Shown one piece after another: positions 1 to 64,000 of a stretch of 64,000 bases of DNA; within the stretch, counting starts at the first letter, position 1; the number at the start of each line of letters is the position of its first letter. This DNA is from Henricia sp. BOLD:AAB3569 (lineage: Eukaryota > Echinodermata > Asteroidea > Spinulosida > Echinasteridae). The stretch spans positions 83,444 to 147,443 of the forward strand of contig JBBELK010001360.1 of the NCBI GenBank assembly GCA_037783545.1. Direction: 5' to 3'. Under the pieces are notes generated by a model. It saw nothing but the letters and a program-made list of their open reading frames with translations, made no database searches and had not been told where the DNA came from. The position numbers were made by a program, and so were the translations under genes.

Positions 1-3000
1 TATATTCCGCACTTGTCATGCAAAATTGACAGATTTTCGCTGGGAAATGACGGAGAAATTTCAGAGTTTAGGGAAAACGGAGCTCGGCTGCGTGGTTATT
101 CCCCTAACCGTGGCTGTTGGGACACCCTGCGCCGCGCTGGTGTACATTTGTACGGCCGTTGACTCACCCCAGATTGTGACGGGAATTAGGTCAAAGTGTG
201 TCCCAAATGCCGGCAAATTTGGAAATCAAGGAATTTTCCAACCAACTTCAAATTTTGCATGCTCCAAACTGTATATATTCCGCACTTGTCATGCAAAATT
301 GACAGATTTTCGCTGGGAAATGACGGAGAAATTTCAGAGTTTAGGGAAAACGGAGCTCGGCTGCGTTGTTATTCCCCTAACCGTGGCTGTTGGGACACCC
401 TGCGCATGCGCCGCGCTGGTGTACATTTGTACGGCCGTTGACTCACCCAAGATTGTGACGGGAATTAGGTCAAAGTGTGTCCCAAATGCCGGCAAATTTC
501 GAAAATCAAGGAATTTTCCAACCAACTTCAAATTTTGCATGCTCCAAACTGTATATATTCCGCACTTGTCATGCAAAATTGACAGATTTTCGCTGGGAAA
601 TGACGGAGAAATTTCAGAGTTTAGGGAAAACGGAGCTCGGCTGCGTGGTTATTCCCCTAACCGTGGCTGTTGGGACACCCTGCGCATGCGCCGCGCTGGT
701 GTACATTTGTACGACCGTTGACTCACCCCAGATTGTGACGGGAATTAGGTCAAAGTGTGTCCCAAATGCCGGCAAATTTCGAAATCAAGGAATTTTCCAA
801 CCAACTTCAAATGTTGCATGCTCCAAACTGTATATATTCCGCACTTGTCATGCAAAATTGACAGATTTTCGCTGGGAAATGACAGGGAAATTTCAGAGTT
901 TAGGGAAAACGGAGCTCGGCTGCGTGGTTATTCCCCTAACCGTGGCTGTTGGGACACCCTGCGCCGCGCTGGTGTACATTTGTACGGCCGTTGACTCACC
1001 CCAGATTGTGACGGGAATTAGGTCAAAGTGTGTCCCAAATGCCGGCAAATTTCGAAAATCAAGGAATTTTCCAACCAACTTCAAATTTTGCATGCTCCAA
1101 ACTGTATATATTCCGCACTTGTCATGCAAAATTGACAGATTTTCGCTGGGAAATGACGGAGAAATTTCAGAGTTTAGGGAAAACGGAGCTCGGCTGCGTG
1201 GTTATTCCCCTAACGTGGCTGTTGAGACACCCTGCGCCGCGCTGGTGTACATTTGTACGGCCGTTGACTCACCCCAGATTGTGACGGGAATTAGGTCAAA
1301 GTGTGTCCCAAATGCCGGCAAATTTGGAAATCAAGGAATTTTCCAACCACCTTCAAATTTTGCATGCTCCAAACTGTATATATTCCGCACTTGTCATGCA
1401 AAATTGACAGATTTTCGCTGGGAAATGACGGAGACATTTCAGAGTTTAGGGAAAACGGAGCTCGGCTGCGTGGTTATTCCCCTAACCGTGGCTGTTGGGA
1501 CACCCTGCGCATGCGCCGCGCTGGTGTACATTTGTACGGCCGTTGACTCACCCCAGATTGTGACGGGAATTAGGTCAAAGTGTGTCCCAAATGCCGGCAA
1601 ATTTCGAAAATCAAGGAATTTTCCAACCAACTTCAAATTTTGCATGCTCCAAACTGTATATATTCCGCACTTGTCATGCAAAATTGACAGATTTTCGCTG
1701 GGAAATGACGGAGAAATTTCAGAGTTTAGGGAAAACGGAGCTCGGCTGCGTGGTTATTCCCCTAACCGTGGCTGTTGGGACACCCTGCGCATGCGCCGCG
1801 CTGGTGTACATTTGTACGGCCGTTGACTCACCCCAGATTGTGACGGGAATTAGGTCAAAGTGTGTCCCAAATGCCGGCAATTTTGGAAATCAAGGAATTT
1901 TCCAACCAACTTCAAATGTTGCATGCTCCAAACTGTATATATTCCGCACTTGTCATGCAAAATTGACAGATTTTCGCTGGGAAATGACGGAGAAATTTCA
2001 GAGTTTAGGGAAAACGGAGCTCGGCTGCGTGGTTATTCCCCTAACCGTGGCTGTTGGGACACCCTGCGCCGCGCTGGTGTACATTTGTACGGCCGTTGAC
2101 TCACCCCAGATTGTGACGGGAATTAGGTCAAAGTGTGTCCCAAATGCCGGCAAATTTGGAAATCAAGGAATTTTCCAACCAACTTCAAATTTTGCATGCT
2201 CCAAACTGTATATATTCCGCACTTGTCATGCAAAATTGACAGATTTTCGCTGGGAATTGACGGAGAAATTTCAGAGTTTAGGGAAAACGGAGCTCGGCTG
2301 CGTGGTTATGCCCCTAACCGTGGCTGTTGGGACACCCTGCGGATGCGCCGCGCTGGTGTACATTTGTACGGCCGTTGACTCACCCCAGATTGTGACGGGA
2401 ATTAGGTCAAAGTGTGTCCCAAATGCCGGCAAATTTCGAAAATCAAGGAATTTTCCAACCAACTTCAATTTTGCATGCTCCAAACTGTATATATTCCGCA
2501 CTTGTCATGCAAAATTGACAGATTTTCGCTGGGAAATGACGGAGAAATTTCAGAGTTTAGGGAAAACGGAGCTCGGCTGCGTGGTTATTCCCCTAACCGT
2601 GGCTGTTGGGACACCCTGCGCCGCGCTGGTGTACATTTGTACGGCCGTTGACTCACCCCAGATTGTGACGGGAATTAGGTCAAAGTGTGTCCCAAATGCC
2701 GGCAAATTTGGAAATCAAGGAATTTTCCAACCAACTTCAAATTTTGCATGCTCCAAACTGTATATATTCCGCACTTGTCATGCAAAATTGACAGATTTTC
2801 GCTGGGAAATGACGGAGAAATTTCAGAGTTTAGGGAAAACGGAGCTCGGCTGCGTTGTTATTCCCCTAACCGTGGCTGTTGGGACACCCTGCGCATGCGC
2901 CGCGCTGGTGTACATTTGTACGGCCGTTGACTCACCCAAGATTGTGACGGGAATTAGGTCAAAGTGTGTCCCAAATGCCGGCAAATTTCGAAAATCAAGG

Positions 3001-4070
3001 AATTTTCCAACCAACTTCAAATGTTGCATGCTCCAAACTGTATATATTCCGCACTTGTCATGCAAAATTGACAGATTTTCGCTGGGAAATGACAGGGAAA
3101 TTTCAGAGTTTAGGGAAAACGGAGCTCGGCTGCGTGGTTATTCCCCTAACCGTGGCTGTTGGGACACCCTGCGCCGCGCTGGTGTACATTTGTACGGCCG
3201 TTGACTCACCCCAGATTGTGACGGGAATTAGGTCAAAGTGTGTCCCAAATGCCGGCAAATTTCGAAAATCAAGGATTTTTCCAACCAACTTCAAATTTTG
3301 CATGCTCCAAACTGTATATATTCCGCACTTGTCATGCAAAATTGACAGATTTTCGCTGGGAAATGACGGAGAAATTTCAGAGTTTAGGGAAAACGGAGCT
3401 CGGCTGCGTGGTTATTCCCCTAACCGTGGCTGTTGGGACACCCTGCGCATGCGCCGCGCTGGTGTACATTTGTACGGCCGTTGACTCACCCAAGATTGTG
3501 ACGGGAATTAGGTCAAAGTGTGTCCCAAATGCCGGCAAATTTCGAAAATCAAGGAATTTTCCAACCAACTTCAAATTTTGCATGCTCCAAACTGTATATA
3601 TTCCGCACTTGTCATGCAAAATTGACAGATTTTCGCTGGGAAATGACGGAGAAATTTCAGAGTTTAGGGAAAACGGAGCTCGGCTGCGTGGTTATTCCCC
3701 TAACCGTGGCTGTTGGGACACCCTGCGCATGCGCCGCGCTGGTGTACATTTGTACGGCCGTTGACTCACCCCAGATTGTGACTGGAATTAGGTCAAAGTG
3801 TGTCCCAAATGCCGGCAAATTTCGAAATCAAGGAATTTTCCAACCAACTTCAAATGTTGCATGCTCCAAACTGTATATATTCCGCACTTGTCATGCAAAA
3901 TTGACAGATTTTCGCTGGGAAATGACAGGAAAATTTCAGAGTTTAGGGAAAACGGAGCTCGGCTGCGTGGTTATTCCCCTAACCGTGGCTGTTGGGACAC
4001 CCTGCGCCGCGCTGGTGTACATTTGTACGGCCGTTGACTCACCCCAGATTGTGACGGGAATTAGGTCAAA
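1..4070. repeat. Irregular satellite segment with many +1 and +6 units
   Basis: Units begin at 196, 475, 755, 1028, 1301, 1580, 1860, 2133, 2412, 2685, 2964, 3238, 3518 and 3798. Many carry TTTCGAAAATC instead of TTTGGAAATC (the +1 form), and about half carry the 6-bp insertion. Recurring private variants show older duplications: the CTGCGTTGTT change and the ACCCAAGATT ending occur at 196 and again at 2685; GACAGG replaces GACGG in units 755, 2964 and 3798. Unit 1028 has the +1 insertion and a -1 deletion (CTAACGTGG), giving 273 bp with a shifted interior. No simple period is kept. This looks like HOR material scrambled by several unequal exchanges. Confidence 0.85.
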
Positions 4071-5162
4071 GTGTGTCCCAAATGCCGGCAAATTTGGAAA
4101 TCAAGGAATTTTCCAACCAACTTCAAATTTTGCATGCTCCAAACTGTATATATTCCGCACTTGTCATGCAAAATTGACAGATTTTCGCTAGAAAATGACG
4201 GAGAAATTTCAGAGTTTAGGGAAAACGGAGCTCGGCTGCGTGGTTATTCCCCTAACCGTGGCTGTTGGGACACCCTGCACCGCGCTGGTGTACATTTGTA
4301 CGGCCGTTGACTCACCCCAGATTGTGACGGGAATTAGGTCAAAGTGTGTCCCAAATGCCGGCAAATTTGGAAATCAAGGAATTTTCCAACCAACTTCAAA
4401 TTTTGCATGCTCCAAACTGTATATATTCCGCACTTGTCATGCAAAATTGACAGATTTTCGCTGGGAAATGGCGGAGAAATTTCAGAGTTTAGGGAAAACG
4501 GAGCTCGGCTGCGTGGTTATTCCCCAAACCGTGGCTGTTGGGACACCCTGCGCCGCGCTGGTGTACATTTGTACGGCCGTTGACTCACCCCAGATTGTGA
4601 CGGGAATTAGGTCAAAGTGTGTCCCAAATGCCGGCAAATTTGGAAATCAAGGAATTTTCCAACCAACTTCAAATTTTGCATGCTCCAAACTGTATATATT
4701 CCGCACTTGTCATGCAAAATTGACAGATTTTCGCTAGAAAATGACGGAGAAATTTCAGAGTTTAGGGAAAACGGAGCTCGGCTGCGTGGTTATTCCCCTA
4801 ACCGTGGCTGTTGGGACACCCTGCACCGCGCTGGTGTACATTTGTACGGCCGTTGACTCACCCCAGATTGTGACGGGAATTAGGTCAAAGTGTGTCCCAA
4901 ATGCCGGCAAATTTGGAAATCAAGGAATTTTCCAACCAACTTCAAATTTTGCATGCTCCAAACTGTATATATTCCGCACTTGTCATGCAAAATTGACAGA
5001 TTTTCGCTGGGAAATGGCGGAGAAATTTCAGAGTTTAGGGAAAACGGAGCTCGGCTGCGTGGTTATTCCCCAAACCGTGGCTGTTGGGACACCCTGCGCC
5101 GCGCTGGTGTACATTTGTACGGCCGTTGACTCACCCCAGATTGTGACGGGAATTAGGTCAAA
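4071..5162. repeat. Tandem duplication of a 546-bp dimer
   Basis: The dimer 4071-4616 is repeated at 4617-5162. The first monomer of each pair has CGCTAGAAAATG, which puts a TAG in the open frame, and CTGCACCGCG. The second has GAAATGGCGG and CCCCAAACC. I see no difference between the two dimers by eye. The same monomer types are units 9 and 10 of the 13-mer HOR that follows, for example at 7908 and 8181. The duplicated dimer is therefore a local slip inside a partial HOR copy. Confidence 0.9.
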
Positions 5163-5716
5163 GTGTGTCCAAAATGCCGGCAAATTTGGAAATCAAGGAA
5201 TTTTCCAACCAACTTCAAATTGTGCCTGCTCCAAACTGTATATATTCCGCACTTGTCATGCAAAATTGACAGATTTTCGCTGGGAAATGACGGAGAAATT
5301 TCAGAGTTTAGGGAAAACGGAGCTCGGCTGCGTGGTTATTCCCCTAACCGTGGCTGTTGGGACACCCTGCGCCGCGCTGGTGTACATTTGTACGGCCGTT
5401 GACTCACCCCAGATTGTGACGGGAATTAGGTCAAAGTGTGTCCCAAATGCCGGCAAATTTCGAAAATCAAGGAATTTTCCAACCAACTTCAAATTTTGCA
5501 TGCTCCAAACTGTATATATTCCGCACTTGTCATGCAAAATTGACAGATTTTCGCTGGGAAATGACGGAAAAAAATTCAGAGTTTAGGGAAAACGGAGCTC
5601 GGCTGCGTGGTTATTCCCCTAACCGTGGCTGTTGGGACACCCTGCGCATGCGCCGCGCTGGTGTACATTTGTACGGCCGTTGACTCATCCCAGATTGTGA
5701 CGGGAATTAGGTCAAA
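5163..5716. repeat. End of a partial 13-mer copy (units 11 and 13)
   Basis: Unit 5163 has GTGTCCAAAATGCC and CAAATTGTGCCTGC, the marks of HOR unit 11. Unit 5436 is 281 bp: it has TTTCGAAAATC (+1), GGAAAAAAATTC in place of GGAGAAATTTC (+1) and the 6-bp insertion, the marks of unit 13. Together with 4071-5162 these form the last part of a 13-mer copy that lacks unit 12. The seven-A run in unit 13 is seen again at 9001, which makes it a true inherited variant rather than a read error. Confidence 0.85.
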
Positions 5717-8700
5717 GTGTGTCCCAAATGCCGGCAAATTTGGAAATCAAGGAATTTTCCAACCAACTTCAAATGTTGCATGCTCCAAACTGTATATATT
5801 CCGCACTTGTCATGCAAAATTGACAGATTTTCGCTGGGAAATGACGGAGAAATTTCAGAGTTTAGGGAAAACGGAGCTCGGCTGCGTGGTTATTCCCCTA
5901 ACCGTGGCTGTTGGGACACCCTGCGCCGCGCTGGTGTACATTTGTACGGCCGTTGACTCACCCCAGATTGTGACGGGAATTAGGTCAAAGTGTGTCCCAA
6001 ATGCCGGCAAATTTGGAAATCAAGGAATCTTCCAACCAACTTCAAAATTTGCATGCTCCAAACTGTATATATTCCGCACTTGTCATGCAAAATTTACAGA
6101 TTTTCGCTGGGAAATGACGGATAAATTTCAGAGTTTAGGAAAAACGGAGCTCGGCTGCGTGGTTATTCCCCTAACCGTGGCTGTTGGAACACCCTGCGCC
6201 GCGCTGGTGTACATTTGTACGGCCGTTGACTCACCCCAGATTGTGACGGGAATTAGGTCAAAGTGTGTCCCAAATGCCGGCAAATTTGGAAATCAAGGAA
6301 TTTTCCAACCAACTTCAAATATCGCATGCTCCAAACTGTATATATTCCGCACTTGTCATGCAAAATTGACAGATTTTCGCTGGGAAATGACGGAGAAATT
6401 TCAGAGTTTAGGGAAAACGGAGCTCGGCTGCGTGGTTATTCCCCTAACCGTGGCTGTTGGGACACCCTGCGCCGCGCTGGTGTACATTTGTACGGCCGTT
6501 GACTCACCCCAGATTGTGACGGGAATTAGGTCAAAGTGTGTCCCAAATGCCGGCAAATTTCGAAAATCAAGGAATTTTCCAACCAACTTCAAATTTTGCA
6601 TGCTCCAAACTGTATATATTCCGCACTTGTCATGCAAAATTGACAGATTTTCGCTGGGAAATGACGGATACATTTCAGAGTTTAGGGAAAACGGAGCTCG
6701 GCTGCGTGGTTATTCCCCTAACCGTGGCTGTTGGGACACCCTGCGCCGCGCTGGTGTACATTTGTACGGCCGTTGACTCACTCCAGATTGTGACGGGAAT
6801 TAGGTCAAAGTGTGTCCCAAATGCCGGCAAATTTGGAAATCAAGGAATTTTCCAACCAACTTCAAATATCGCATGCTCCAAACTGTATATATTCCGCACT
6901 TGTCATGCAAAATTGACAGATTTTCGCTGGGAAATGACGGAGAAATTTCAGAGATTAGGGAAAACGGAGCTCGGCTGCGTGGTTATTCCCCTAACCGTGG
7001 CTGTTGGGACACCCTGCGCATGCGCCGCGCTGGTGTACATTTGTACGGCCGTTGACTCACCCCAGATTGTGACGGGAATTAGGTCAAAGTGTGTCCCAAA
7101 TGCCGGCAAATTTGGAAATCAAGGAATTTTCCAACCAACTTCAAATGTTGCATGCTCCAAACTGTATATATTCCGCACTTGTCATGCAAAATTGACAGAT
7201 TTTCGCTGGGAAATGACGGAGAAATTTCAGAGTTTAGGGAAAACGGAGCTCGGCTGCGTGGTTATTCCCCTAACCGTGGCTGTTGGGACACCCTGCGCCG
7301 CGCTGGTGTACATTTGTACGGCCGTTGACTCACCCCAGATTGTGACGGGAATTAGGTCAAAGTGTGTCCCAAATGCCGGCAAATTTGGAAATCAAGGAAT
7401 TTTCCAACCAACTTCAAATTTTGCATGCTCCAAACTGTATATATTCCGCACTTCTCATGCAAAATTGACAGATTTTCGCTAGAAAATGACGGAGAAATTT
7501 CAGAGTTTAGGGAAAACGTAGCTCGGCTGCGTGGTTATTCCCCTAACCGTGGCTGTTGGGACACCCTGCGCCGCGCTGGTGTACATTTGTACGGCCGTTG
7601 ACTCACCCCAGATTGTGACGGGAATTAGGTCAAAGTGTGTCCCAAATGCCGGCAAATTTGGAAATCAAGGAATTTTCCAACCAACTTCAAATTTTGCATG
7701 CTCCAAACTGTATATATTCCGCACTTGTCATGCAAAATTGACAGATTTTCGCTGGGAAATGACGGAGAAATTTCAGAGTTTAGGGAAAACGGAGCTCGGC
7801 TGCGTGGTTATTCCCCTAACCGTGGCTGTTGGGACACCCTGCGCCGCGCTGGTGTACATTTGTACGGCCGTTGACTCATCCCAGATTGTGACGGGAATTA
7901 GGTCAAAGTGTGTCCCAAATGCCGGCAAATTTGGAAATCAAGGAATTTTCCAACCAACTTCAAATTTTGCATGCTCCAAACTGTATATATTCCGCACTTG
8001 TCATGCAAAATTGACAGATTTTCGCTAGAAAATGACGGAGACATTTCAGAGTTTAGGGAAAACGGAGCTCGGCTGCGTGGTTATTCCCCTAACCGTGGCT
8101 GTTGGGACACCCTGCACCGCGCTGGTGTACATTTGTACGGCCGTTGACTCACCCCAGATTGTGACGGGAATTAGGTCAAAGTGTGTCCCAAATGCCGGCA
8201 AATTTGGAAATCAAGGAATTTTCCAACCAACTTCAAATTTTGCATGCTCCAAACTGTATATATTCCGCACTTGTCATGCAAAATTGACAGATTTTCGCTG
8301 GGAAATGGCGGAGAAATTTCAGAGTTTAGGGAAAACGGAGCTCGGCTGCGTGGTTATTCCCCTAACCGTGGCTGTTGGGACACCCTGCGCCGCGCTGGTG
8401 TACATTTGTACGGCCGTTGACTCACCCCATATTGTGACGGGAATTAGGTCAAAGTGTGTCCAAAATGCCGGCAAATTTGGAAATCAAGGAATTTTCCAAC
8501 CAACTTCAAATTGTGCCTGCTCCAAACTGTATATATTCCGCACTTGTCATGCAAAATTGACAGATTTTCGCTGGGAAATGACGGAGAAATTTCAGAGTTT
8601 AGGGAAAACGGAGCTCGGCTGCGTGGTTATTCCCCTAACCGTGGCTGTTGGGACACCCTGCGCCGCGCTGGTGTACATTTGTACGGCCGTTGACTCACCC

Positions 8701-9281
8701 CAGATTGTGACGGGAATTAGGTCAAAGTGTGTCCCAAATGCCGGCAAATTTCGAAAATCAAGGAATTTTCCAACCAACTTCAAATTTTGCATGCTCCAAA
8801 CTGTATATATTCCGCACTTGTCATGCAAAATTGACAGATTTTCGCTGGGAAATGACGGATACATTTCAGAGTTTAGGGAAAACGGAGCTCGGCTGCGTGG
8901 TTATTCCCCTAACCGTGGCTGTTGGGACACCCTGCGCCGCGCTGGTGTACATTTGTACGGCCGTTGACTCACCCCAGATTGTGACGGGAATTAGGTCAAA
9001 GTGTGTCCCAAATGCCGGCAAATTTCGAAAATCAAGGAATTTTCCAACCAACTTCAAATTTTGCATGCTCCAAACTGTATATATTCCGCACTTGTCATGC
9101 AAAATTGACAGATTTTCGCTGGGAAATGACGGAAAAAAATTCAGAGTTTAGGGAAAACGGAGCTCGGCTGCGTGGTTATTCCCCTAACCGTGGCTGTTGG
9201 GACACCCTGCGCATGCGCCGCGCTGGTGTACATTTGTACGGCCGTTGACTCACCCCAGATTGTGACGGGAATTAGGTCAAA
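5717..9281. repeat. 13-monomer higher-order repeat, complete copy 1 (3565 bp)
   Basis: The thirteen units begin at 5717, 5990, 6263, 6536, 6810, 7089, 7362, 7635, 7908, 8181, 8454, 8727 and 9001. Diagnostic marks in order: unit 1 AAATGTTGC; unit 2 GAATCTTCC, AAAATTTGC and ATTTACAG; unit 3 AAATATCGC; unit 4 TTTCGAAAATC with GGATACATTT; unit 5 AAATATCGC, CAGAGATTA and +6; unit 6 AAATGTTGC; unit 7 CACTTCTCATGC, CGCTAGAAAATG and AAACGTAGC; unit 8 ends ACTCATCCC; unit 9 CGCTAG and CTGCACC; unit 10 AATGGCGG; unit 11 CAAATTGTGCC; unit 12 resembles unit 4; unit 13 is 281 bp. Neighbouring monomers differ at several sites, but the next copy matches almost perfectly. That is the definition of an HOR. 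Confidence 0.93.
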
Positions 9282-12200
9282 GTGTGTCCCAAATGCCGGC
9301 AAATTTGGAAATCAAGGAATTTTCCAACCAACTTCAAATGTTGCATGCTCCAAACTGTATATATTCCGCACTTGTCATGCAAAATTGACAGATTTTCGCT
9401 GGGAAATGACGGAGAAATTTCAGAGTTTAGGGAAAACGGAGCTCGGCTGCGTGGTTATTCCCCTAACCGTGGCTGTTGGGACACCCTGCGCCGCGCTGGT
9501 GTACATTTGTACGGCCGTTGACTCACCCCAGATTGTGACGGGAATTAGGTCAAAGTGTGTCCCAAATGCCGGCAAATTTGGAAATCAAGGAATCTTCCAA
9601 CCAACTTCAAAATTTGCATGCTCCAAACTGTATATATTCCGCACTTGTCATGCAAAATTTACAGATTTTCGCTGGGAAATGACGGATAAATTTCAGAGTT
9701 TAGGAAAAACGGAGCTCGGCTGCGTGGTTATTCCCCTAACCGTGGCTGTTGGAACACCCTGCGCCGCGCTGGTGTACATTTGTACGGCCGTTGACTCACC
9801 CCAGATTGTGACGGGAATTAGGTCAAAGTGTGTCCCAAATGCCGGCAAATTTGGAAATCAAGGAATTTTCCAACCAACTTCAAATATCGCATGCTCCAAA
9901 CTGTATATATTCCGCACTTGTCATGCAAAATTGACAGATTTTCGCTGGGAAATGACGGAGAAATTTCAGAGTTTAGGGAAAACGGAGCTCGGCTGCGTGG
10001 TTATTCCCCTAACCGTGGCTGTTGGGACACCCTGCGCCGCGCTGGTGTACATTTGTACGGCCGTTGACTCACCCCAGATTGTGACGGGAATTAGGTCAAA
10101 GTGTGTCCCAAATGCCGGCAAATTTCGAAAATCAAGGAATTTTCCAACCAACTTCAAATTTTGCATGCTCCAAACTGTATATATTCCGCACTTGTCATGC
10201 AAAATTGACAGATTTTCGCTGGGAAATGACGGATACATTTCAGAGTTTAGGGAAAACGGAGCTCGGCTGCGTGGTTATTCCCCTAACCGTGGCTGTTGGG
10301 ACACCCTGCGCCGCGCTGGTGTACATTTGCACGGCCGTTGACTCACTCCAGATTGTGACGGGAATTAGGTCAAAGTGTGTCCCAAATGCCGGCAAATTTG
10401 GAAATCAAGGAATTTTCCAACCAACTTCAAATATCGCATGCTCCAAACTGTATATATTCCGCACTTGTCATGCAAAATTGACAGATTTTCGCTGGGAAAT
10501 GACGGAGAAATTTCAGAGATTAGGGAAAACGGAGCTCGGCTGCGTGGTTATTCCCCTAACCGTGGCTGTTGGGACACCCTGCGCATGCGCCGCGCTGGTG
10601 TACATTTGTACGGCCGTTGACTCACCCCAGATTGTGACGGGAATTAGGTCAAAGTGTGTCCCAAATGCCGGCAAATTTGGAAATCAAGGAATTTTCCAAC
10701 CAACTTCAAATGTTGCATGCTCCAAACTGTATATATTCCGCACTTGTCATGCAAAATTGACAGATTTTCGCTGGGAAATGACGGAGAAATTTCAGAGTTT
10801 AGGGAAAACGGAGCTCGGCTGCGTGGTTATTCCCCTAACCGTGGCTGTTGGGACACCCTGCGCCGCGCTGGTGTACATTTGTACGGCCGTTGACTCACCC
10901 CAGATTGTGACGGGAATTAGGTCAAAGTGTGTCCCAAATGCCGGCAAATTTGGAAATCAAGGAATTTTCCAACCAACTTCAAATTTTGCATGCTCCAAAC
11001 TGTATATATTCCGCACTTCTCATGCAAAATTGACAGATTTTCGCTAGAAAATGACGGAGAAATTTCAGAGTTTAGGGAAAACGTAGCTCGGCTGCGTGGT
11101 TATTCCCCTAACCGTGGCTGTTGGGACACCCTGCGCCGCGCTGGTGTACATTTGTACGGCCGTTGACTCACCCCAGATTGTGACGGGAATTAGGTCAAAG
11201 TGTGTCCCAAATGCCGGCAAATTTGGAAATCAAGGAATTTTCCAACCAACTTCAAATTTTGCATGCTCCAAACTGTATATATTCCGCACTTGTCATGCAA
11301 AATTGACAGATTTTCGCTGGGAAATGACGGAGAAATTTCAGAGTTTAGGGAAAACGGAGCTCGGCTGCGTGGTTATTCCCCTAACCGTGGCTGTTGGGAC
11401 ACCCTGCGCCGCGCTGGTGTACATTTGTACGGCCGTTGACTCATCCCAGATTGTGACGGGAATTAGGTCAAAGTGTGTCCCAAATGCCGGCAAATTTGGA
11501 AATCAAGGAATTTTCCAACCAACTTCAAATTTTGCATGCTCCAAACTGTATATATTCCGCACTTGTCATGCAAAATTGACAGATTTTCGCTAGAAAATGA
11601 CGGAGACATTTCAGAGTTTAGGGAAAACGGAGCTCGGCTGCGTGGTTATTCCCCTAACCGTGGCTGTTGGGACACCCTGCACCGCGCTGGTGTACATTTG
11701 TACGGCCGTTGACTCACCCCAGATTGTGACGGGAATTAGGTCAAAGTGTGTCCCAAATGCCGGCAAATTTGGAAATCAAGGAATTTTCCAACCAACTTCA
11801 AATTTTGCATGCTCCAAACTGTATATATTCCGCACTTGTCATGCAAAATTGACAGATTTTCGCTGGGAAATGGCGGAGAAATTTCAGAGTTTAGGGAAAA
11901 CGGAGCTCGGCTGCGTGGTTATTCCCCTAACCGTGGCTGTTGGGACACCCTGCGCCGCGCTGGTGTACATTTGTACGGCCGTTGACTCACCCCATATTGT
12001 GACGGGAATTAGGTCAAAGTGTGTCCAAAATGCCGGCAAATTTGGAAATCAAGGAATTTTCCAACCAACTTCAAATTGTGCCTGCTCCAAACTGTATATA
12101 TTCCGCACTTGTCATGCAAAATTGACAGATTTTCGCTGGGAAATGACGGAGAAATTTCAGAGTTTAGGGAAAACGGAGCTCGGCTGCGTGGTTATTCCCC

Positions 12201-12291
12201 TAACCGTGGCTGTTGGGACACCCTGCGCCGCGCTGGTGTACATTTGTACGGCCGTTGACTCACCCCAGATTGTGACGGGAATTAGGTCAAA
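9282..12291. repeat. 13-monomer HOR, copy 2, truncated to 11 units
   Basis: Units at 9282, 9555, 9828, 10101, 10375, 10654, 10927, 11200, 11473, 11746 and 12019 reproduce units 1-11 of the preceding copy at a constant offset of 3565 bp. All odd marks are kept, including CACTTCTCATGC, CGCTAGAAAATG and AAACGTAGC in unit 7. The only clear difference I found by eye inside this stretch is TTTGCACGG instead of TTTGTACGG near 10329. The copy does not finish with units 12 and 13. At 12292 the array jumps back to the unit-4 stage. Confidence 0.92.
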
Positions 12292-51332: not shown

Positions 51333-54108
51333 GTGTGTCCCAAATGCCGGCAAATTTGGAAATCAAGGAATTTTCCAACCAACTTCAAATTTTGCATGCT
51401 CCAAACTGTATATATTCCGCACTTGTCATGCAAAATTGACAGATTTTCGCCGGGAAATGACGGAGAAATGTCAGAGTTTAGGGAAAACGGAGCTCGGCTG
51501 CGTGGTTATTCCCCTAACCGTGGCTGTTGGGACACCCTGCGCATGCGCCGCGCTGGTGTACATTTGTACGGCCGTTGACTCACCCCAGATTGTGACGGGA
51601 ATTAGGTCAAAGTGTGTCCCAAATGCTGCAAATTTGGAAATCAAGGAATTTTCCAACCAACTTCAAATTTTGCATGCTCCAAACTGTATATATTCCGCAC
51701 TTGTCATGCAAAATTGACAGATTTTCGCTGGGAAATGACGGAGAAATTTCAGAGTTTAGGGAAAACGGAGCTCGGCTGCGTGGTTATTCCCCTAACCGTG
51801 GCTGTTGGGACACCCTGCGCATGCGCCGCGCTGGTGTACATTTGTACGGCCGTTGACTCACCCCAGATTGTGACGGGAATTAGGTCAAAGTGTGTCCCAA
51901 ATGCCGGCAAATTTGGAAATCAAGGAATTTTCCAACCAACTTCAAATTTTGCATGCTCCAAACTGTATATATTCCGCACTTGTCATGCAAAATTGACAGA
52001 TTTTCGCTGGGAAATGACGGAGAAATTTCAGAGTTTAGGGAAAACGGAGCTCGGCTGCGTGGTTATTCCCCTAACCGTGGCTGTTGGGACACCCTGCGCA
52101 TGCGCCGCGCTGGTGTACATTTGTACGGCCGTTGACTCACCCCAGATTGTGACGGGAATTAGGTCAAAGTGTGTCCCAAATGCCGGCAAATTTGGAAATC
52201 AAGGAATTTTCCAACCAACTTCAAATTTTGCATGCTCCAAACTGTATATATTCCGCACTTGTCATGCAAAATTGACAGATTTTCGCTGGGAAATGACGGA
52301 GAAATTTCAGAGTTTAGGGAAAACGTAGCTCGGCTGCGTGGTTATTCCCCTAACCGTGGCTGTTGGGACACCCTGCGCATGCGCCGCGCTGGTGTACATT
52401 TGTACGGCCGTTGACTCACCCCAGATTGTGACGGGAATTAGGTCAAAGTGTGTCCCAAATGCCGGCAAATTTGGAAATCAAGGAATTTTCCAACCAACTT
52501 CAAATTTTGCATGCTCCAAACTGTATATATTCCGCACTTGTCATGCAAAATTGACAGATTTTCGCTAGGAAATGACGGATAAATTTCAGAGTTTAGGGAA
52601 AACGGAGCTCGGCTGCGTGGTTATTCCCCTAACCGTGGCTGTTGGGACACCCTGCGCATGCGCCGCGCTGGTGTACATTTGTACGGCCGTTGACTCACCC
52701 CAGATTGTGACGGGAATTAGGTCAAAGTGTGTCCCAAATGCCGGCAAATTTGGAAATCAAGGAATTTTCCAACCAACTTCAAATTTTGCATGCTCCAAAC
52801 TGTATATATTCCGCACTTGTCATGCAAAATTGACAGATTTTCGCTGGGAAATGACGGAGAAATTTCAGAGTTTAAGGAAAACGGAGCTCGGCTGCGTGGT
52901 TATTCCCCTAACCGTGGCTGTTGGGACACCCTGCGCATGCGCCGCGCTGGTGTACATTTGTACGGCCGTTGACTCACCCCAGATTGTGACGGGAATTAGG
53001 TCAAAGTGTGTTCCAAATGCCGGCAAATTTGGAAATCAAGGAATTTTCCAACCAACTTCAAATTTTGCATGCTCCAAACTGTATATATTCCGCACTTTTC
53101 ATGCAAAATTGACAGATTTTCGCTGGGAAATGACGGAGAAATTTCAGAGTTTAGGGAAAACGGAGCTCGGCTGCGTGGTTATTCCCCTAACCGTGGCTGT
53201 TGGGACACCCTGCGCCGCGCTGGTGTACATTTGTACGGCCGTTGACTCACCCCAGATTGTGACGGGAATTAGGTCAAAGTGTGTCCCAAATGCCGGCAAA
53301 TTTGGAAATCAAGGAATTTTCCAACCAACTTCAAATTTTGCATGCTCCAAACTGTATATATTCCGCACTTGTCATGCAAAATTGACAGATTTTCGCTGGG
53401 AAATGACGGAGAAATTTCAGAGTTTAGGGAAAACGGAGCTCGGCTGCGTGGTTATTCCCCTAACCGTGGCTGTTGGGACACCCTGCGCATGCGCCGCGCT
53501 GGTGTACATTTGTACGGCCGTTGACTCACCCCAGATTGTGACGGGAATTAGGTCAAAGTGTGTCCCAAATGCCGGCAAATTTGGAAATCAAGGAATTTTC
53601 CAACCAACTTCAAATTTTGCATGCTCCAAACTGTATATATTCCGCACTTGTCATGCAAAATTGACAGATTTTCGCTGGGAAATGACGGAGAAATTTCAGA
53701 GTTTAGGGAAAACGGAGCTCGGCTGCGTGGTTATTCCCCTAACCGTGGCTGTTGGGACACCCTGCGCATGCGCCGCGCTGGTGTACATTTGTACGGCCGT
53801 TGACTCACCCCAGATTGTGACGGGAATTAGGTCAAAGTGTGTCCCAAATGCCGGCAAATTTGGAAATCAAGGAATTTTCCAACCAACTTCAAATGTTGCA
53901 TGCTCCAAACTGTATATATTCCGCACTTGTCATGCAAAATTGACAGATTTTCGCTGGGAAATGACGGAGAAATTTCAGAGTTTAGGGAAAACGGAGCTCG
54001 GCTGCGTGGTTATTCCCCTAACCGTGGCTGTTGGACACACTGCGCCGCGCTGGTGTACATTTGTACGGCCGTTGACTCACCCCAGATTGTGACGGGAATT
54101 AGGTCAAA

Positions 54109-57100
54109 GTGTGTCCCAAATGCCGGCAAATTTGGAAATCAAGGAATTTCCAACCAACTTCAAATTTTGCATGCTCCAAACTGTATATATTCCGCACTTG
54201 TCATGCAAAATTGACAGATTTTCGCTGGAAATGACGGAGAAATTTCAGAGTTTAAGGAAAACGGAGCTCGGCTGCGTGGTTATTCCCCTAACCGTGGCTG
54301 TTGGGACACCCTGCGCATGCGCGCGCTGGTGTACATTTGTACGGCCGTTGACTCACCCCAGATTGTGACGGGAATTAGGTCAAAGTGTGTCCAAATGCCG
54401 GCAAATTTGGAAATCAAGGAATTTTCCAACAACTTCAAATTTTGCATGCTTCAAACTGTATATATTCCGCACTTGTCATGCAAAATTGACAGATTTTCGC
54501 TGGGAAATGACGGAGAAATTTCAGAGTTTAGGGGAAACGGAGCTCGGATGCGTAGTTATTCCCCTAACCGTGGCTGTTGGGACACCCTGCGCCGCGCTGG
54601 TGTACATTTGTACGGCCGTTGACTCACCCCAGATTGTGACGGGAATTAGGTCAAAGTGTGTCCCAAATGCCGGCAAATTTGGAAATCAAGGAATTTTCCA
54701 ACCAACTTCAAATTTTGCATGCTCCAAACTGTATATATTCCGCACTTGTCATGCAAAATTGACAGATTTTCGCTGGGAAATGACGAGAAATTTCAGAGTT
54801 TAGGGAAAACGGAGCTCGCTGCGTGGTTATTCCCCTAACCGTGGCTGTTGGGACACCCCTGCGCCGCGCTGGTGTACATTTGTACGGCCGTTGACTCACC
54901 CCAGATTGTGACGGGAATTAGGTCAAAGTGTGTCCCAAATGCCGCAAATTTGGAAATCAAGGAATTTTCCAACCAACTTCAAATTTTGCATGCTCCAAAC
55001 TGTATATATTCCGCACTTGTCATGCAAAATTGACAGATTTTCGCTGGGAAATGACGGAGAAATTTCAGAGTTTAGGGAAAACGGAGCTCGGCTGCGTGGT
55101 TATTCCCTAACCGTGGCTGTTGGGACACCCTGCGCATGCGCCGCGCTGGTGTACATTTGTACGGCCGTTGACTCACCCCAGATTGTGACGGGAATTAGGT
55201 CAAAGTGTGTCCCAAATGCCGGCAAATTTCGAAAATCAAGGAATTTTCCAACCAACTTCAAATTTTGCATGCTCCAAACTGTATATATTCCGCACTTGTC
55301 AATGCAAAATTGACAGATTTTCGCTGGGAAATGACGGAGAAATTTCAGAGTTTAGGGAAAACGGAGCTCGGCTGCGTGGTTATTCCCCTAACCGTGGCTG
55401 TTGGGACACCCTGCGCATGCGCGCGCTGGTGTACATTTGTACGGCCGTTGACTCACCCCAGATTGTGACGGGAATTAGGTCAAAGTGTGTCCCAAATGCC
55501 GGCAAATTTGGAAATCAAGGAATTGTCCAACCAACTTCAAATGTTGCATGCTCCAAACTGTATATATTCCGCACTTGTCATGCAAAATTGACAGATTTTC
55601 GCTGGGAAATGACGGAGAAATTTCAGAGTTTAGGGAAAACGGAGCTCGGCTGCGTGGTTATTCCCCTAACCGTGGCTGTTGGGACACCCTGCGCCGCGCT
55701 GGTGTACATTTGTACGGCCGTTGACTCACCCCAGATTGTGACGGGAATTAGGTCAAAGTGTGTCCCAAATGCCGGCAAATTTGGAAATCAAGGAATTTCC
55801 AACCAACTTCAAATTTTGCATGCTCCAAACTGTATATATTCCGCACTTGTCATGCAAAATTGACAGATTTTCGCTGGGAAATGACGGAGAAATTTCAGAG
55901 TTTAGGGAAAACGGAGCTCGGCTGCGTGGTTATTCCCCTAACCGTGGCTGTTGGGACACCCTGCGCTGCGCCGCGCTGGTGTACATTTGTACGGCCCGTT
56001 GACTCACCCCAGATTGTGACGGGAATTAGGTCAAAGTGTGTCCCAAATGCCGGCAAATTTGGAAATCAAGGAATTTTCCAACCAACTTCAAATTTTGCAT
56101 GCTCCAAACTGTATATATTCCGCACTTGTCATGCAAAATTGACAGATTTTCGCTGGGAAATGACGGAGAAATTTCAGAGTTTAGGGAAACGGAGCTCGGA
56201 TGCGTAGTTATTCCCCTAACCGTGGCTGTTGGGACACCCCTGCGCCGCGCTGGTGTACATTTGTACGGCCGTTGACTCACCCCAGATTGTGACGGGGAAT
56301 TAGGTCAAAGTGTGTCCCAAATGCCGGCAAATTTGGAAATCAAGGAATTTTCCAACCAACTTCAAATTTGCATGCTCCAAACTGTATATATTCCGCACTT
56401 GTCATGCAAAATTGACAGATTTTCGCTGGGAAATGACGGAGAAATTTCAGAGTTTAGGGAAAACGGAGCTCGGCTGCGTGGTTATTCCCCTAACCGTGGC
56501 TGTTGGGACACCCTGCGCCCGCGCTGGTGTACATTTGTACGGCCGTTGACTCACCCCAGATTGTGACGGAATTAGGTCAAAGTGTGTCCCAAATGCCGGC
56601 AAATTTGGAAATCAAGGAATTGTCCAACCAACTTCAAATTTTGCATGCTCCAAACTGTATATATTCCGCACTTGTCATGCAAAATTGACAGATTTTCGCT
56701 GGGAAATGACGGAGAAATTTCAGAGTTTAGGGAAAACGGAGCTCGGCTGCGTGGTTATTCCCCTAACCGTGGCTGTTGGGACACCTGCGCCGCGCTGGTG
56801 TACATTTGTACGGCCGTTGACTCACCCCAGATTGTGACGGGAATTAGGTCAAAGTGTGTCCAAATGCCGGCAAATTTGGAAATCAAGGAATTTTCCAACC
56901 ACAACTCAAATTTTGCATGCTCCAAACTGTATATATTCCGCACTTGTCATGCAAATTGACAGATTTTCGCTGGGAAATGACGGAGAAATTTCAGAGTTTA
57001 AGGAAAACGGAGCTCGGCTGCGTGGTTATTCCCCTAACGTGGCTGTTGGGACACCCTGCGCATGCGCCGCGCTGTGTACATTTGTACGGCCGTTGACTCA

Positions 57101-60100
57101 CCCCAGATTGTGACGGGAATTAGGTCAAAGTGTGTCCCAAATGCCGGCAAATTTGGAAATCAAGGAATTTTCCAACCAACTTCAAATTTTGCATGCTCCA
57201 AACTGTATATATTCCGCACTTGTCATGCAAAATTGACAGATTTTCGCTGGGAAATGACGGAGAAATTTCAGAGTTTAGGGAAAACGGAGCTCGGCTGCGT
57301 GGTTATTCCCCTAACCGTGGCTGTTGGGACACCCCTGCGCATGCGCCGCGCTGGTGTACATTTGTACGGCCGTTGACTCACCCCAGATTGTGACGGGAAT
57401 TAGGTCAAAGTGTGTCCCAAATGCCGGCAAATTTCGAAAATCAAGGAATTTCCAACCAACTTCAAATTTTGCATGCTCCAAACTGTATATATTCCGCACA
57501 TGTCATGCAAAATTGACAGATTTTCGCTGGGAAATGACGGAGAAATTCAGAGTTTAGGGGAAAACGGAGCTCGGCTGCGTGGTTATTCCCCTAACCGTGG
57601 CTGTTGGGACACCCTGCGCCGCGCTGGTGTACATTTTGTACGGCCGTTGACTCACCCCAGATTGTGACGGGAATTAGGTCAAAGTGTGTCCCAAATGCCG
57701 GCAAATTTGGAAATCAAGGAATTTTCCAACCAACTTCAAATTTTGCATGCTCCAAACTGTATATATTCCGCACTTGTCATGCAAAATTGACAGATTTTCG
57801 CTGGGAAATGACGGAGAAATTTCAGAGTTTAAGGAAAACGGAGCTCGGCTGCGTGGTTATTCCCCTAACCGTGGCTGTTGGGACACCCTGCGCCGCGCTG
57901 GTGTACATTTGTACGGCCGTTGACTCACCCCAGATTGTGACGGGAATTAGGTCAAAGTGTGTCCCAAATGCCGGCAAATTTGGAAATCAAGGATTTTCCA
58001 ACCAACTTCAAATTTTGCATGCTCCAAACTGTATATATTCCGCACTTGTCATGCAAAATTGACAGATTTTCGCTGGGAAATGACGGAGAAATTTCAGAGT
58101 TTAGGGAAAACGGAGCTCGGCTGCGTGGTTATTCCCTAACCGTGGCTGTTGGGACACCCTGCGCCGCGCTGGTGTACATTTGTACGGCCGTTGACTCACC
58201 CCCAGATTGTGACGGGAATTAGGTCAAAGTGTGTCCCAAATGCCGGCAAATTTGGAAATCAAGGAATTTTCCAACCAACTTCAAATTTTGCATGCTCCAA
58301 ACTGTATATATTCCGCACTTGTCATGCAAAATTGACAGATTTTCGCTGGGAAAATGACGGAGAAATTTCAGAGTTTAGGGGAAACGGAGCTCGGATGCGT
58401 AGTTATTCCCCTAACCGTGGCTGTTGGGACACCCTGCGCCGCGCTGGTGTACATTTGTACGGCCGTTGACTCACCCCAGATTGTGACGGGAATTAGGTCA
58501 AAGTGTGTCCCAAATGCCGGCAAATTTGGAAATCAAGGAATTTTCAAACCAACTTCAAATTTTGCATGCTCCAAACTGTATATATTCCGCACTTGTCATG
58601 CAAATTTGACAGATTTTCGCTGGGAAATGACGGAGAAATTTCAGAGTTTAGGGAAAACGGAGCTCGGCTGCCTGGTTATTCCCTAACCGTGGCTGTTGGG
58701 ACACCCTGCTCCGCGCTGGTGTACATTTGTACGGCCGTTGACTCACCCCAGATTGTGACGGGAATTAGGTCAAAGTGTGTCCCAAATGCCGGCAAATTTG
58801 GAAATCAAGGAATTTCCAACCAACTTCAAATTTTGCATGCTCCAAACTGTATATATTCCGCACTTGTCATGCAAAATTGACAGATTTTCGCTGGGAAATG
58901 ACGGAGAAATTTCAGAGTTTAGGGAAAACGGAGCTCGGCTGCGTGGTTATTCCCCTAACCGTGGCTGTTGGGACAACCCTTGCGCCGCGCTGGTGTACAT
59001 TTGTACGGCCGTTGACTCACCCAGATTGTGACGGGAATTAGGTCAAAGTGTGTCCAAATGCCGGCAAATTTGGAAATCAAGGAATTTTCCAACCAACTTC
59101 AAATTTTGCATGCTCCAAACTGTATATTTTCCGCACTTGTCATGCAAAATTGACAGATTTTCGCTGGGAAATGACGGAGAAATTTCAGAGTATAGGGAAA
59201 ACGGAGCTCGGCTGCGTGGTTATTCCCCTAACCGTGGCTGTTGGGACACCCTGCGCCGCGCTGGTGTACATTTGTACGGCCGTTGACTCACCCCAGATTG
59301 TGACGGGAATTAGGTCAAAGTGTGTCCCAAATGCCGTCAAATTTGGAAATCAAGGAATTTTCCAACCAACTTCAAATTTGCATGCTCCAAACTGTATATA
59401 TTCCGCACTTGTCATGCAAAATTGACAGATTTTCGCTGGGAAATGACGGAGAAATTTCAGAGTTTAGGGGAAAACGGAGCTCGGCTGCGTGGTTATTCCC
59501 CTAACCGTGGCTGTTGGGACACCCCTGCGCCGCGCTGGTGTACATTTGTACGGCCGTTGACTCACCCCAGATTGTGACGGGAATTAGGTCAAAGTGTGTC
59601 CCAAATGCCGGCAAATTTGGAAATCAAGGAATTTTCCAACCAACTTCAAATTTTGCATGCTCCAAACTGTATATATTCGCACTTTGTCATGCAAAATTGA
59701 CAGATTTTCGCTGGGAAATGACGGAGAAATTTCAGAGTTTAGGGAAACGGAGCTCGGCTGCGTGGTTATTCCCCTAACCGTGGCTGTTGGGACACCCTGC
59801 GCCGCGCTGGTGTACATTTGTACGGCCGTTGACTCACCCCAGATTGTGACGGGAATTAGGTTCAAAGTGTGTCCCAAATGCCGGCAAATTTGGGAAATCA
59901 AGGAATTTTGCAACCAACTTCAAATTTTGCATGCTCCAAACTGTATATATTCCGCACTTGTCATGCAAAATTGACAGATTTTCGCTGGGAAATGACGGAG
60001 AAATTTCAGAGTTTAGGGAAAACGGAGCTCGGCTGCGTGGTTATTCCCCTAACCGTGGCTGTTGAGACACCCTGCGCATGCGCCGCGCTGGTGTACATTT

Positions 60101-63100
60101 GTACGGCCGTTGACTCACCCCAGATTGTGACGGGAATTAGGTCAAAGTGTGTCCCAAATGCCGGCAAATTTGGAAATCAAGGAATTTTCCAACCAACTTC
60201 AAATTTTGCATGCTCCAAACTGTATATATTCCGCACTTGTCATGCAAAATTGACAGATTTTCGCTGGGAAATGACGGAGAAATTTTCAGAGTTTAGGGAA
60301 AAACGGAGCTCGGCTGCGTGGTTATTCCCCTAACCGTGGCTGTTGGGACACCCTGCGCCGCGCTGGTGTACATTTGTAAGGCCGGTTGACTCACCCAGAT
60401 TGTGACGGGAATTAGTCAAAGTGTGTCCCAAATGCCGGCAAATTTGGAAATCAAGGAATTTTCCAACCAACTTCAAATTTTTGCATGCTCCAAACTGTAT
60501 ATTTTCCGCACTTGTCATGCAAAATTGACAGATTTTCGCTGGAAATGACGGAGAAATTCAGAGTATAGGGAAAACGGAGCTAGGCTGCGTGGTTATTCCC
60601 CTAACGTGGCTGTTGGGACACCTGCGCCGCGCTGGTGTACATTTGTACGGCCGTTGACTCACCCCAGATTGTGACGGGAATTAGTCAAAGTGTGTCCCAA
60701 ATGCCGTCAAATTTGGAAATCAAGGAATTTTCCAACCAACTTCAAATTTTGCATGCTCCAAACTGTATATATTCCGCACCTTGTCATGCAAAATTGACAG
60801 ATTTTCGCTGGGAAATGACGGAGAAAATTCAGAGTTTAGGGAAACGGAGCTCGGCTGCGTGGTTATTCCCCTAACCGTGGCTGTTGGGACACCCTGCGCC
60901 GCGCTGGTGTACATTTGTACGGCCGTTGACTCACCCCAGATTGTGACGGGAATTAGGTCAAAGTGTGTCCCAAATGCCGGCAAATTTGGAAATCAAGGAA
61001 TTTTCCAACCAACTTCAAATTTTGCATGCTCCAAACTGTATATATTCCGCACTTGTCATGCAAAATTGACAGATTTTCGCTTGGAATGACGGAGAAATTT
61101 CAGAGTTTAGGGAAAACGGAGCTCGGCTGCGTGGTTATTCCCCTAACCGTGGCTGTTGGGTACACTATGCGCCGCGCTGGTGTACATTTGTACGGCCGTT
61201 GACTCACCCAGATTGTGACGGAATTAGGTCAAAGTGTGTCCCAAATGCCGGCAAATTTGGAAATCAAGGAATTTTCCACCAACTTCAATTTTGCATGCTC
61301 CAAAATGTATATATTCCGCACTTGTCATGCAAAATTGACAGATTTTCGCTGGGAAATGTCGGAAAAATTTCAGAGTTTAGGAAAACCGGAGCTCGGCTGC
61401 GTGGTTATTCCCCTAACCGTGGCTGTTGAGACACCTGCGCATGCGCCGCGCTGGTGTACATTTGTACGGCCGTTGACTCACCCAGATTGTGACGGGAATT
61501 AGGTCAAAGTGTGTCCAAATGCCGGCAAATTTGGAAATCAAGGAATTTTCCAACCAAACTTTAAATTTTGCATGCTCCGAACTGTATATATTCCGCACTT
61601 GTCAAGCAAATTGACAGATTTTCGCTGGAAATGACGGAGAAATTTCAGAGTTTAGGAAAAACGGAGCTCGGCTGCGTGGTTATTCCCCTAACCGTGGCTG
61701 TTGGGACACCCTGCGCATGCGCCCGCGATGGTGTACATTTGTACGGCCGTTGACTCACCCCAGATTGTGACCGGGAATTAGGTCAAAGTGTGTCCAAATG
61801 CCGGCAAATTTGGAAATCAAGAATTTTCCAACCTACTTCAAATTTTGCAAGCTCCAAACTGTAATATTCCGCACTTGTCATGCAAAATTGACAGATTTTC
61901 GCTGGGAAATGACGGAGAAATTTCAGAGTTTAGGGAAAACGGAGCTCGCTGCGTGGTTATTCCCCTAACCGTGGCTGTTGGGACACCCTGCGCATGCGCC
62001 GCGCTGGTGTACATTTGTACGGCCGTTGACTCACCCCAGATTGTGACGGGAATTAGGTCAAGTGTGTCCCAATGCCGGCAAATTTGGAAATCAAGGAATT
62101 TTCCAACCAACTTCAAATTTTGCATGCTCCAAACTGTATATATTCCGCACTTGTCATGCAAAATTGACAGATTTCGCTGGAAATGACGGAGAAATTTCAG
62201 AGTTTAGGGAAAACGGAGCTCGGCTGCGTGGTTATTCCCCTAACCGTGGCTGTTGGGACACCCTGCGCCGCGCTGGTGTACATTTGTACGGCCGTTGACT
62301 CACCCAGATTGTGACGGGAATTAGGTCAAAGTGGGTGGTCCAAATGCCGGCAAATTTGGAATCAAGGAATTTTCAACCAACCTTCAAATTTTGCATGCTC
62401 CAAACTGTATATATTCCGCACTTGTCATGCAAAATGACAGATTTTCGCCTGGGAAATGTCGGAGAAATTTTCAGAGTTTAGGAAAAACGGAGCTCGGCTG
62501 CGTGGTTATTCCCCTAACCGTGCTGTTGAGACACCCTGCGCATGCGCCGCGCTGCGTGTACATTTGTACGGCCGTTGACTCACCCAGATTGTGACGGGAA
62601 TTAGGTCAAAGTTGTGTCCCAAATGCCGGCCAATTTGGAAATCAAGGAATTTTCCAACCAACTTCAAATGTTGCATGCTCCAAACTGTATATATTTCGCA
62701 CTTGTCATGCAAAATTGACAGATTTTCGCTGGGAAATGACGGAGAAAATTTCAGAGTTTAGGGAAAACGGAGCTCGGCTGCGTGGTTATTCCCCTAACGT
62801 GCCTGTTGGGACACCCTGCGCCGCGCTGGTGTACATTTGCACGGGCCGTTGACTCACCCCCAGATTGTGACGGGAATTAGGTCAAAGTGTGTCCCAAATG
62901 CCGGCAAATTTGGAAATCAAGGAATTTTCCAACCTACTTCAAATTTTGCATGCTCCAAACAGTTTATATTCCGCACTTGTCATGCAAAATTGACAGATTT
63001 TCGCTGGGAAATGACGGAGAAATTTCAGAGTTTAGGGAAAACGGAGCTCGGCTGCGTGGTTATTCCCCTAACCGTGGCTGTTGGGACACCCTGCGCATGC

Positions 63101-64000
63101 GCCGCGCTGGTGTAACATTTGTACGGCCGTTGACTCACCCCAGATTGTGACGGGATTAGGTCAAAGTGTGTCCCAAATGCCGGCAAATTGGAAAATTCAA
63201 GGAATTTTCCCAACCAACTTCAAAATTTTGCATGCTCCAACTGTATATATTCCGCACTTGTCATGCAAAATTGACAGATTTTCGCTGGGAAATGACGGAG
63301 AAATTTCAGAGTTTAGGGAAACGGAGCTCGCTGCGTGGTTTATTCCCCTAACCGTGGCTGTTGAGGACACCCTCATGCGCCGCGCTGGTGTACATTTGTA
63401 CGGCCGTTGATCACCCAGATTGTGACGGAATTAGGTCAAAGTGTGTCCCAAATGCGGCAAATTTGGAAATCAAGGAAATTTTCCAACCAACTTCAATTTT
63501 GGCATGCTCCAAACTGTATATATTCCGCACTTGTCATGCAAAATTGACAGATTTTCGCTGGGAAATGACGGAGAAATTTCAGAGTTTAGGGAAAACGGAG
63601 CTCGGCTGCGTGGTTATTCCCCCTAACCGTGGCTGTGGGACACCCTGCGCATGCGCCGCGCTGGTGTACATTTGTACGGCGTTGACTCACCCCCAGATTG
63701 TGACGGAATTAGGTCAAAGTGTGTCCAAATGCCGGCAAATTTGGGAAATCAAGGAATTTTCCAACAACTTCAAATTTTGCATGCTCCAAACTGTATATAT
63801 TCCGCACTTGTCATGCAAATTGACAGATTTTCGCTGGGAAATGACACGGAGAAATTTCAGAGTTTAGGGAAAAACGGAGCTCGGCTGCGTGGTTATTCCC
63901 CTAACCGTGGCTGTTGGGACACCCTGCGCCGCGCTGGTGTACATTTGTACGGCCGTTGACTCACCCCAGATTGTGACCGGGAATTAGGTCCAAAGTGTGT
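54109..64000. repeat. Same satellite with dense single-base indels (probably low-quality sequence)
   Basis: About 36 further units are present, starting near 54109, 54385, 54656, 54928, 55205, 55485, 55758, 56036, 56310, 56582, 56854, 57130, 57410, 57684, 57957 and so on to 63719. Unit lengths jitter (276, 271, 272, 277, 280, 273, 278 and so on). The changes are mostly one-base gains or losses in short homopolymers: GGAATTTCC for GGAATTTTCC, CACCCCTG for CACCCTG, GACGGAATT for GACGGGAATT, GTCCAAATG for GTCCCAAATG. Three such indels lie in 54109-54384, but about a dozen in 63166-63440. Substitutions stay rare. The underlying units are ordinary members of the family, so I read this as uncorrected read error at a thinly covered end. 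All reading frames here are shattered. Confidence 0.85.

Follow-up and report, generated by a model that had tools for sequence, protein, structure and literature searches.

Alpha satellite of primates is composed of 171 bp monomers, and the satellites of primate centromeres are layered by age. In other animals, beetles for example, satellites make up large fractions of the genome. The 64,000 bp stretch of DNA analyzed here, referred to below as the window, is filled by a satellite with monomers of mostly 273 or 279 bp, designated subfamily A, which belongs to a superfamily of related repeats (A, B1, B2, C, D1 and D2). Its organization resembles that of alpha satellite: non-coding monomers are arranged head to tail, arrays of related subfamilies adjoin each other, blocks of monomers are amplified locally, and higher-order repeats are starting to form. 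Unlike in alpha satellite, the CENP-B box is absent, and a local four-monomer period and block copies are found instead of an array-wide higher-order repeat. The likeness is one of organization, and the centromeric role is putative here. As in beetles, related satellites constitute a large share of the genome, probably as heterochromatin. The phylum is a different one, however, and several subfamilies of different length are present rather than one dominant monomer.

The window corresponds to positions 83444-147443 of contig C1360 and forms the right end of this 147,443 bp contig, in an assembly of 740,731,340 bp and 2,104 contigs. Tandem Repeats Finder (TRF) describes it as a single array (positions 1-64000, plus strand) with a period of 273 bp, 232.7 copies, 96% matches and 1% indels. 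The 273 bp monomer at positions 35664-35936 of the plus strand served as the reference; its sequence equals the consensus that the short monomer class has in the window. Its BLAST comparison with the window gave 233 matches, all 233 on the plus strand, covering 63,982 of the 64,000 bases with a mean identity of 98.2%. There is no N in the window and the base composition is flat. Neither a gene nor an insertion was found in the 64 kb; a tRNA search of the window found none, and an Rfam scan gave no family at the gathering score. The satellite is called non-coding because the open frame of the monomer shows no purifying selection (see below) and the window has no Rfam family or tRNA. Thus the window has the properties of satellite DNA, namely a long head-to-tail array on one strand, a high copy number in the genome and a non-coding sequence. 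Plasmid records, when searched, contained no match to it. Outside the window, 40 kb of C1360 were read (positions 1-20000, 40000-49999 and 73444-83443), and they are also same-strand A satellite.

The initial annotation described about 233 head-to-tail, same-strand monomers of 273-281 bp across all 64 kb. The arrangement and the number are borne out by TRF and by the plus-strand BLAST matches, but the length range is too narrow, as 13 of the 233 units fall outside it (seven of 272 bp, three of 271 bp, two of 269 bp and one cut unit of 195 bp). The most frequent lengths are 273 bp (126 units), 279 bp (48 units), 274 bp (18 units) and 280 bp (17 units), and 24 units have other lengths. The 273 and 279 bp classes differ by one 6 bp insertion, which is carried by 74-75 of the 229 complete monomers. 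The complete monomers represent 152 distinct sequences.

We favor, with moderate confidence, the explanation that the window belongs to a block of non-coding satellite of the A branch, probably heterochromatin, that is maintained by local unequal exchange. The arrangement of nearly identical monomers supports this explanation. There are 10 runs of at least four monomers with at most one difference each, compared to a mean of 0.03 and a maximum of 1 in 100 shuffled monomer orders. A block of 13 monomers is duplicated in tandem (5436-9000 and 9001-12565, together 5436-12565 of the plus strand) with 3 differences in all. Young nested duplications occupy positions 19436-28240 of the plus strand, where copies are found at lags of 8, 10, 14, 18 and 22 monomers, mostly with 0 differences. 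The local four-monomer period (about 1,098 bp) is located around 19.4-27.7 kb, a 10-monomer block is duplicated at 21086 and 23835, and 8-monomer blocks are duplicated as well. Across the window the mean difference between monomers is nearly independent of lag, and an array-wide higher-order repeat was not detected, there being no lag preference up to 79 monomers.

Two 103 bp variants show where recent copies have gone. Variant X is present in 11 copies on the plus strand at 16176-30860, a span of 14.7 kb, and variant Y in 7 copies at 21425-27577 of the same strand, a span of 6.2 kb. These are the sole exact copies of either variant in the 740.7 Mb assembly. Since X and Y are confined to the window, their recent copying was strictly local. 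The near-identical block duplications, the array-private variants and the 176,317 matches of the A core in the assembly lend good support to the earlier proposal that the satellite expanded recently.

The older history of A is different. Monomers of contig C14 differ from those of five C1360 pieces by 1.15-1.44%, with 0.64% within C14 and 1.40-2.02% within the C1360 pieces (at most the first 60 monomers of each piece were compared). The excess of the C14-C1360 differences over the mean of the within-piece differences amounts to 0.05-0.23 percentage points. In the second 10 kb of contig C18 the difference is 2.3% within the piece and 1.6-2.4% from other pieces, with an excess that reaches about 0.4 points. 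The initial 10 kb of C18, where the sequence is poor (10.5% within, 5.9-6.7% from other pieces), were set aside. The low net divergence between contigs implies that older copies of A have to a large degree spread or been evened out among contigs.

The copying would take place between misaligned monomers, by unequal exchange or by a comparable local process linked to replication; break-induced copying fits the duplication pattern as well. Monomer blocks, 4 to 13 units long, have been duplicated nearly unchanged, and X and Y have multiplied close to where they stand; a slower exchange might keep the A copies on different contigs alike. At the two junctions that were read, arrays of different branches lie side by side on one strand. 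The blocks would form constitutive heterochromatin, probably around centromeres or at chromosome ends, and might aid compaction and segregation without making a product.

The 39 bp core of the A monomer, with at most 3 mismatches allowed, has 85,245 and 91,072 matches, or 176,317 altogether, in the assembly; the reversed-pattern control has 0. At about 275 bp per unit, this count puts A at about 48 Mb, which is 6.5% of the assembly. In a sample of twenty contig pieces (19 contig starts among them), repeats that are about 78-80% like A were present besides A itself. B1 (297 bp) has 151,651 matches in the assembly, B2 (295 bp) 92,444, and D, comprising D1 (205 bp) and D2 (194 bp), 50,193, each with 0 matches for the reversed-pattern control. 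An 18 bp motif common to A, B and C has 477,047 matches with at most 1 mismatch, compared to 3 for its reversed pattern. From the pattern counts and the unit lengths, the superfamily is estimated to take up about 147 Mb, or about 20% of the assembly, with A, B and C contributing about 137 Mb and D about 10 Mb. In the window, the 39 bp core finds 222 and the 18 bp motif 212 of about 233 monomers (91-95%).

The homology of A, B1, B2, C, D1 and D2 is supported by local alignment of 11 of the 15 pairs, with scores of 66-464, whereas the maximum score for 200 random sequences per pair was 42. All six monomers align over the first ~105 columns. In the last third, B and C have segments that are missing from A, and in D the last part is almost entirely absent. 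The C type (295 bp) comes from contig C3, where it is found within short arrays and next to them. It scores higher with A (300) than do B1 (258) and B2 (272), and higher with D1 (89) than do A (77) and B1 (66). C may therefore be the nearest to the ancestor, as far as alignment scores can tell. The 4.4 Mb contig C3 has short B/C-type arrays at 2191067-2195762 and from 2820257, consisting of older, more divergent monomers. A 134 bp element with inverted ends GGGCTGCTTTCGAGCGC is located within a C-type monomer of C3 and also near a B2 array on contig C2 (L069:363-496, L070:828-961), and looks like a short non-autonomous DNA transposon (miniature inverted-repeat transposable element, MITE).

Several points weigh against the explanation in terms of local exchange. 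X and Y were selected for being multiplied in the window. A copies of different contigs do show some net divergence, which is small (about 0.05-0.4 percentage points) but not zero. Unequal exchange is something that we infer from the pattern of the copies, and both the heterochromatic state and the location are presumed. The genome share depends on pattern counts with the sensitivity of 91-95% in the window, and the assembly may keep some haplotype copies. Finally, the short B/C arrays of C3 lie inside a contig with non-satellite ends, which shows that the family also occurs outside large blocks.

An entirely different explanation is that the array is an artefact, a repeat collapsed or invented by the assembler. 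The number of indels per monomer is 0.0-0.6 before 52 kb and 1.1-5.2 from there to the contig end at 64 kb, so that the last 11 kb of C1360 are rich in indels, and a contig with three tandem copies of the mitochondrial genome suggests that the assembler makes concatemers. However, 152 of the 229 complete monomers are distinct, the variants that they share are arranged in blocks, and the family is present on many contigs. We regard such an artefact as very improbable. The stretch with rising indels (52448-64000, plus strand) is probably a consensus error and not the edge of the array. It looks like the poor consensus of a contig end, because the start of the A contig C18 is likewise poor (93.1% in the first 10 kb, 97.7% in the next 10 kb).

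The proposal that the array is a very long gene for a repetitive protein arises from its reading frames. The monomer has one open frame, and its two main lengths, 273 and 279 bp, are multiples of three, which is why open frames extend up to 2,784 codons. The window has 72 open frames of at least 90 amino acids (ATG, GTG or TTG starts), the longest of which (33481-41835, plus strand, 2,784 amino acids) matches four Pfam families with a best E value of 1.4e-32. Yet in all four matches no stretch passes alone, and we read them as weak matches summed over about 30 copies. An open frame is not unusual: among random monomers with the same composition, 22% are open in at least one of the six frames. 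The monomers differ by 101 synonymous, 446 non-synonymous and 19 stop changes, compared to 136.5, 402.7 and 26.9 expected. Synonymous changes are thus fewer than expected, and the counts give no sign of selection at the protein level. Units of 274 and 280 bp contain one-base indels, and 176,317 core matches of A also speak against a gene. Given the substitution pattern, the chance openness and the behavior of the Pfam matches, the coding array was rejected, the longest frame is regarded as a chance open frame and not a gene, and we attach next to no credence to the gene proposal.

Strong secondary structure was rejected, as the DNA fold is unremarkable (z = -1.14, with 22 of 200 shuffles as good); the inverted repeats reach a length of 11 bp. 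In six tests of ten-bp A/T periodicity, P was 0.02 for A, 0.005 for D1, 0.005 for D2, 0.075 for C, 0.225 for B2 and 0.5 for B1. The window shows no sign of germline CpG methylation: the observed to expected CpG ratio is 0.95, and the frequency of C-to-T or G-to-A changes per site and monomer is 0.0036 at CpG positions vs 0.0067 elsewhere.

The local-exchange explanation leaves room for more than one chromosomal location, and the places where satellite meets satellite or other sequence bear on it. On contig C1310 (82,760 bp) a B2 array gives way to an A array without a change of strand. The junction monomer is a hybrid, in which B2 sequence extends to about position 265 and is followed by A-like sequence; the monomer after it is A but begins with some B-like bases. 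This pattern indicates that the switch from B2 to A took place at a homologous place of the monomer. Contig C16 (346,210 bp) passes from D1 to B2, also on the same strand, and D1 was read in seven pieces from the start of the contig to 294.8 kb. On C7, B2 stops at about 2,852 and is followed by other sequence, and on C2 other sequence stops at about 1,114,139 and is followed by B2.

Contig ends were sampled at 200-600 bp (313 bp for the right end of C2). Each sample was compared with A, B1, B2, C, D1 and D2, and matches shorter than 41 bp were dropped; C2 was scored against A, B1 and B2, and a short match at the start of C23 was not counted. Among the long contigs (at least 300 kb, n = 35) both ends of 33 were sampled, together with the right end of C2 and, for C70, the right end and points 4.7-25 kb from the start. 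Many of the contigs had been picked in numerical order or at intervals. C2, C3 and C30 had been chosen from pattern matches, and the telomere of C70 and the rRNA genes of C329 were the grounds for including these two. The superfamily is at a sampled end in seven of the 35 (C2, C7, C16, C17, C30, C37 and C38), or in 5 of 32 if C2, C3 and C30 are excluded. C16 and C17 are satellite at each sampled place. Five contigs pass from an arm into the satellite, and they enter B2 (C2, C7, C37 and C38) or B1 (C30), none of them A or D; C37 and C38 were read at two ends only. In all five the arm is at the 3' side of the satellite strand (two-sided chance 0.06). The five boundaries may not be independent loci, as some could be allelic, and C2 and C30 were chosen through pattern matches. 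Of contigs shorter than 300 kb, 27 were sampled at intervals or in number order, and 21 of the 26 readable ones (C810 starts with N and was excluded) begin in the superfamily. This tally excludes C1360 as well as C14, C18 and C25, which were pattern matches. The superfamily therefore goes together with fragmentation of the assembly. The stretch of N on C810 is at positions 1-600 (L057), and another near a contig start, C70:4700-5400 (L048), lies just outside TTAGGG telomere repeats.

One location to be weighed, raised already in the initial annotation, is the centromere itself, with A forming the core that carries CENP-A nucleosomes and older B, C and D arrays flanking it as pericentromere, as the layering by age in primates might suggest. 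That all five long contigs passing into satellite enter B1 or B2, that the 3 places read on C610 (225 kb) and the 5 read on C17 (310 kb) are all A, that A adjoins B2 in one contig, and that A is uniform with young block duplications are all in favor. B at the arm side and long contigs with A wherever they were read fit a core with flanks. Uniformity is not particular to A, however: at two places, contig C110 carries B1 that is 98.9-100% identical to a B1 monomer from a different contig, although the C110 start gives 91-93%. About 48 Mb of A may, in our judgement, exceed what centromere cores need, and the same polarity at five of five arm junctions is unexpected for mid-chromosome arrays of one orientation. 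Another point against a core is the absence of the CENP-B box, the consensus of which we take to be NTTCGNNNNANNCGGGN. No strict box was found on either strand of the window, and the best sites across the six monomers match 6-7 of the 9 positions, as in shuffles; the best score of A, 6 of 9, is reached by 99.7% of shuffles. Many centromeres lack the box, though. We consider the core role of A a tentative possibility. A look-alike of the box, TTCGCTGGGAAATGACGG, had been spotted by eye and was rejected, as the proper test gives no box.

The equal polarity of the five boundaries fits blocks of telocentric, acrocentric or subtelomeric heterochromatin that lie at or near one end of chromosomes and always point the same way with respect to the arm; it also fits one-sided assembly. 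The cases are only five, with the reservations about alleles and choice given above. In addition, at the C70 telomere, the one telomere looked at, the superfamily satellite is absent at three 401 bp points 7-20 kb from the first telomere repeats, and one of the points has another tandem repeat. We consider a chromosome-end location a tentative possibility as well, slightly less likely than a core role of A. If the fixed polarity is true, it would suggest arrays that are telocentric-like or have grown directionally, as opposed to symmetric growth around a mid-chromosome centromere. The other tandem repeat of C70, at 25000-25400 (L074), about 20 kb from the first telomere repeats, has units like GTTTCGAAAGAACGATCGAAAC.

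The two locations can be joined in a broader conjecture, in which one ancestral repeat would have given rise to subfamilies that build centromeric or chromosome-end heterochromatin, with A as the youngest core, B facing the arms and the same boundary direction everywhere. In this full form the conjecture is rather unlikely to be right. The window satellite is probably heterochromatic, and a centromeric role is possible.

The superfamily is real and very abundant and, as a kind of sequence, ordinary. Full-text searches of an open-access library listed no description of A or of another sea star satellite or centromere, with subscription papers and repeat databases outside the scope of the search; within that scope, the suggestion of the initial annotation that the family may be undescribed agrees with the outcome. 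The spiny starfish Marthasterias glacialis is among the data sets of a tool paper (PMC10153287); a search for 273 in its main text gave no match. The family described here takes up about one fifth of the assembly, its branches adjoin in single contigs, and its array-private variants show how it grows. A, B1, B2 and D are ready probes for locating sea star centromeres.

The source is most likely a sea star, as judged from the mitochondrial code and gene order. The 16,221 bp contig C2104 is the mitochondrial genome, with COX1, ND4 and the small rRNA on the plus strand and the large rRNA, ND2, ND1 and ND6 on the minus strand. Its COX1 was read in table 9, where AAA encodes Asn, and this presumably puts Asn where conserved COX1 has Asn. 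The echinoderm code and the inverted 16S-ND2-ND1 segment constitute what we take to be the known gene order of sea stars (Asteroidea). On contig C955 (48,576 bp), COX1 is found at 7592, 23813 and 40034, a spacing of 16,221 bp, and the contig probably consists of three tandem mitochondrial genomes, concatenated during assembly. Contig C329 (5.7 Mb) contains, among the 40 of 12,516 candidates that were scored, at least 16 5.8S rRNA genes at 515634-857032, all on one strand and spaced by about 12-39 kb.

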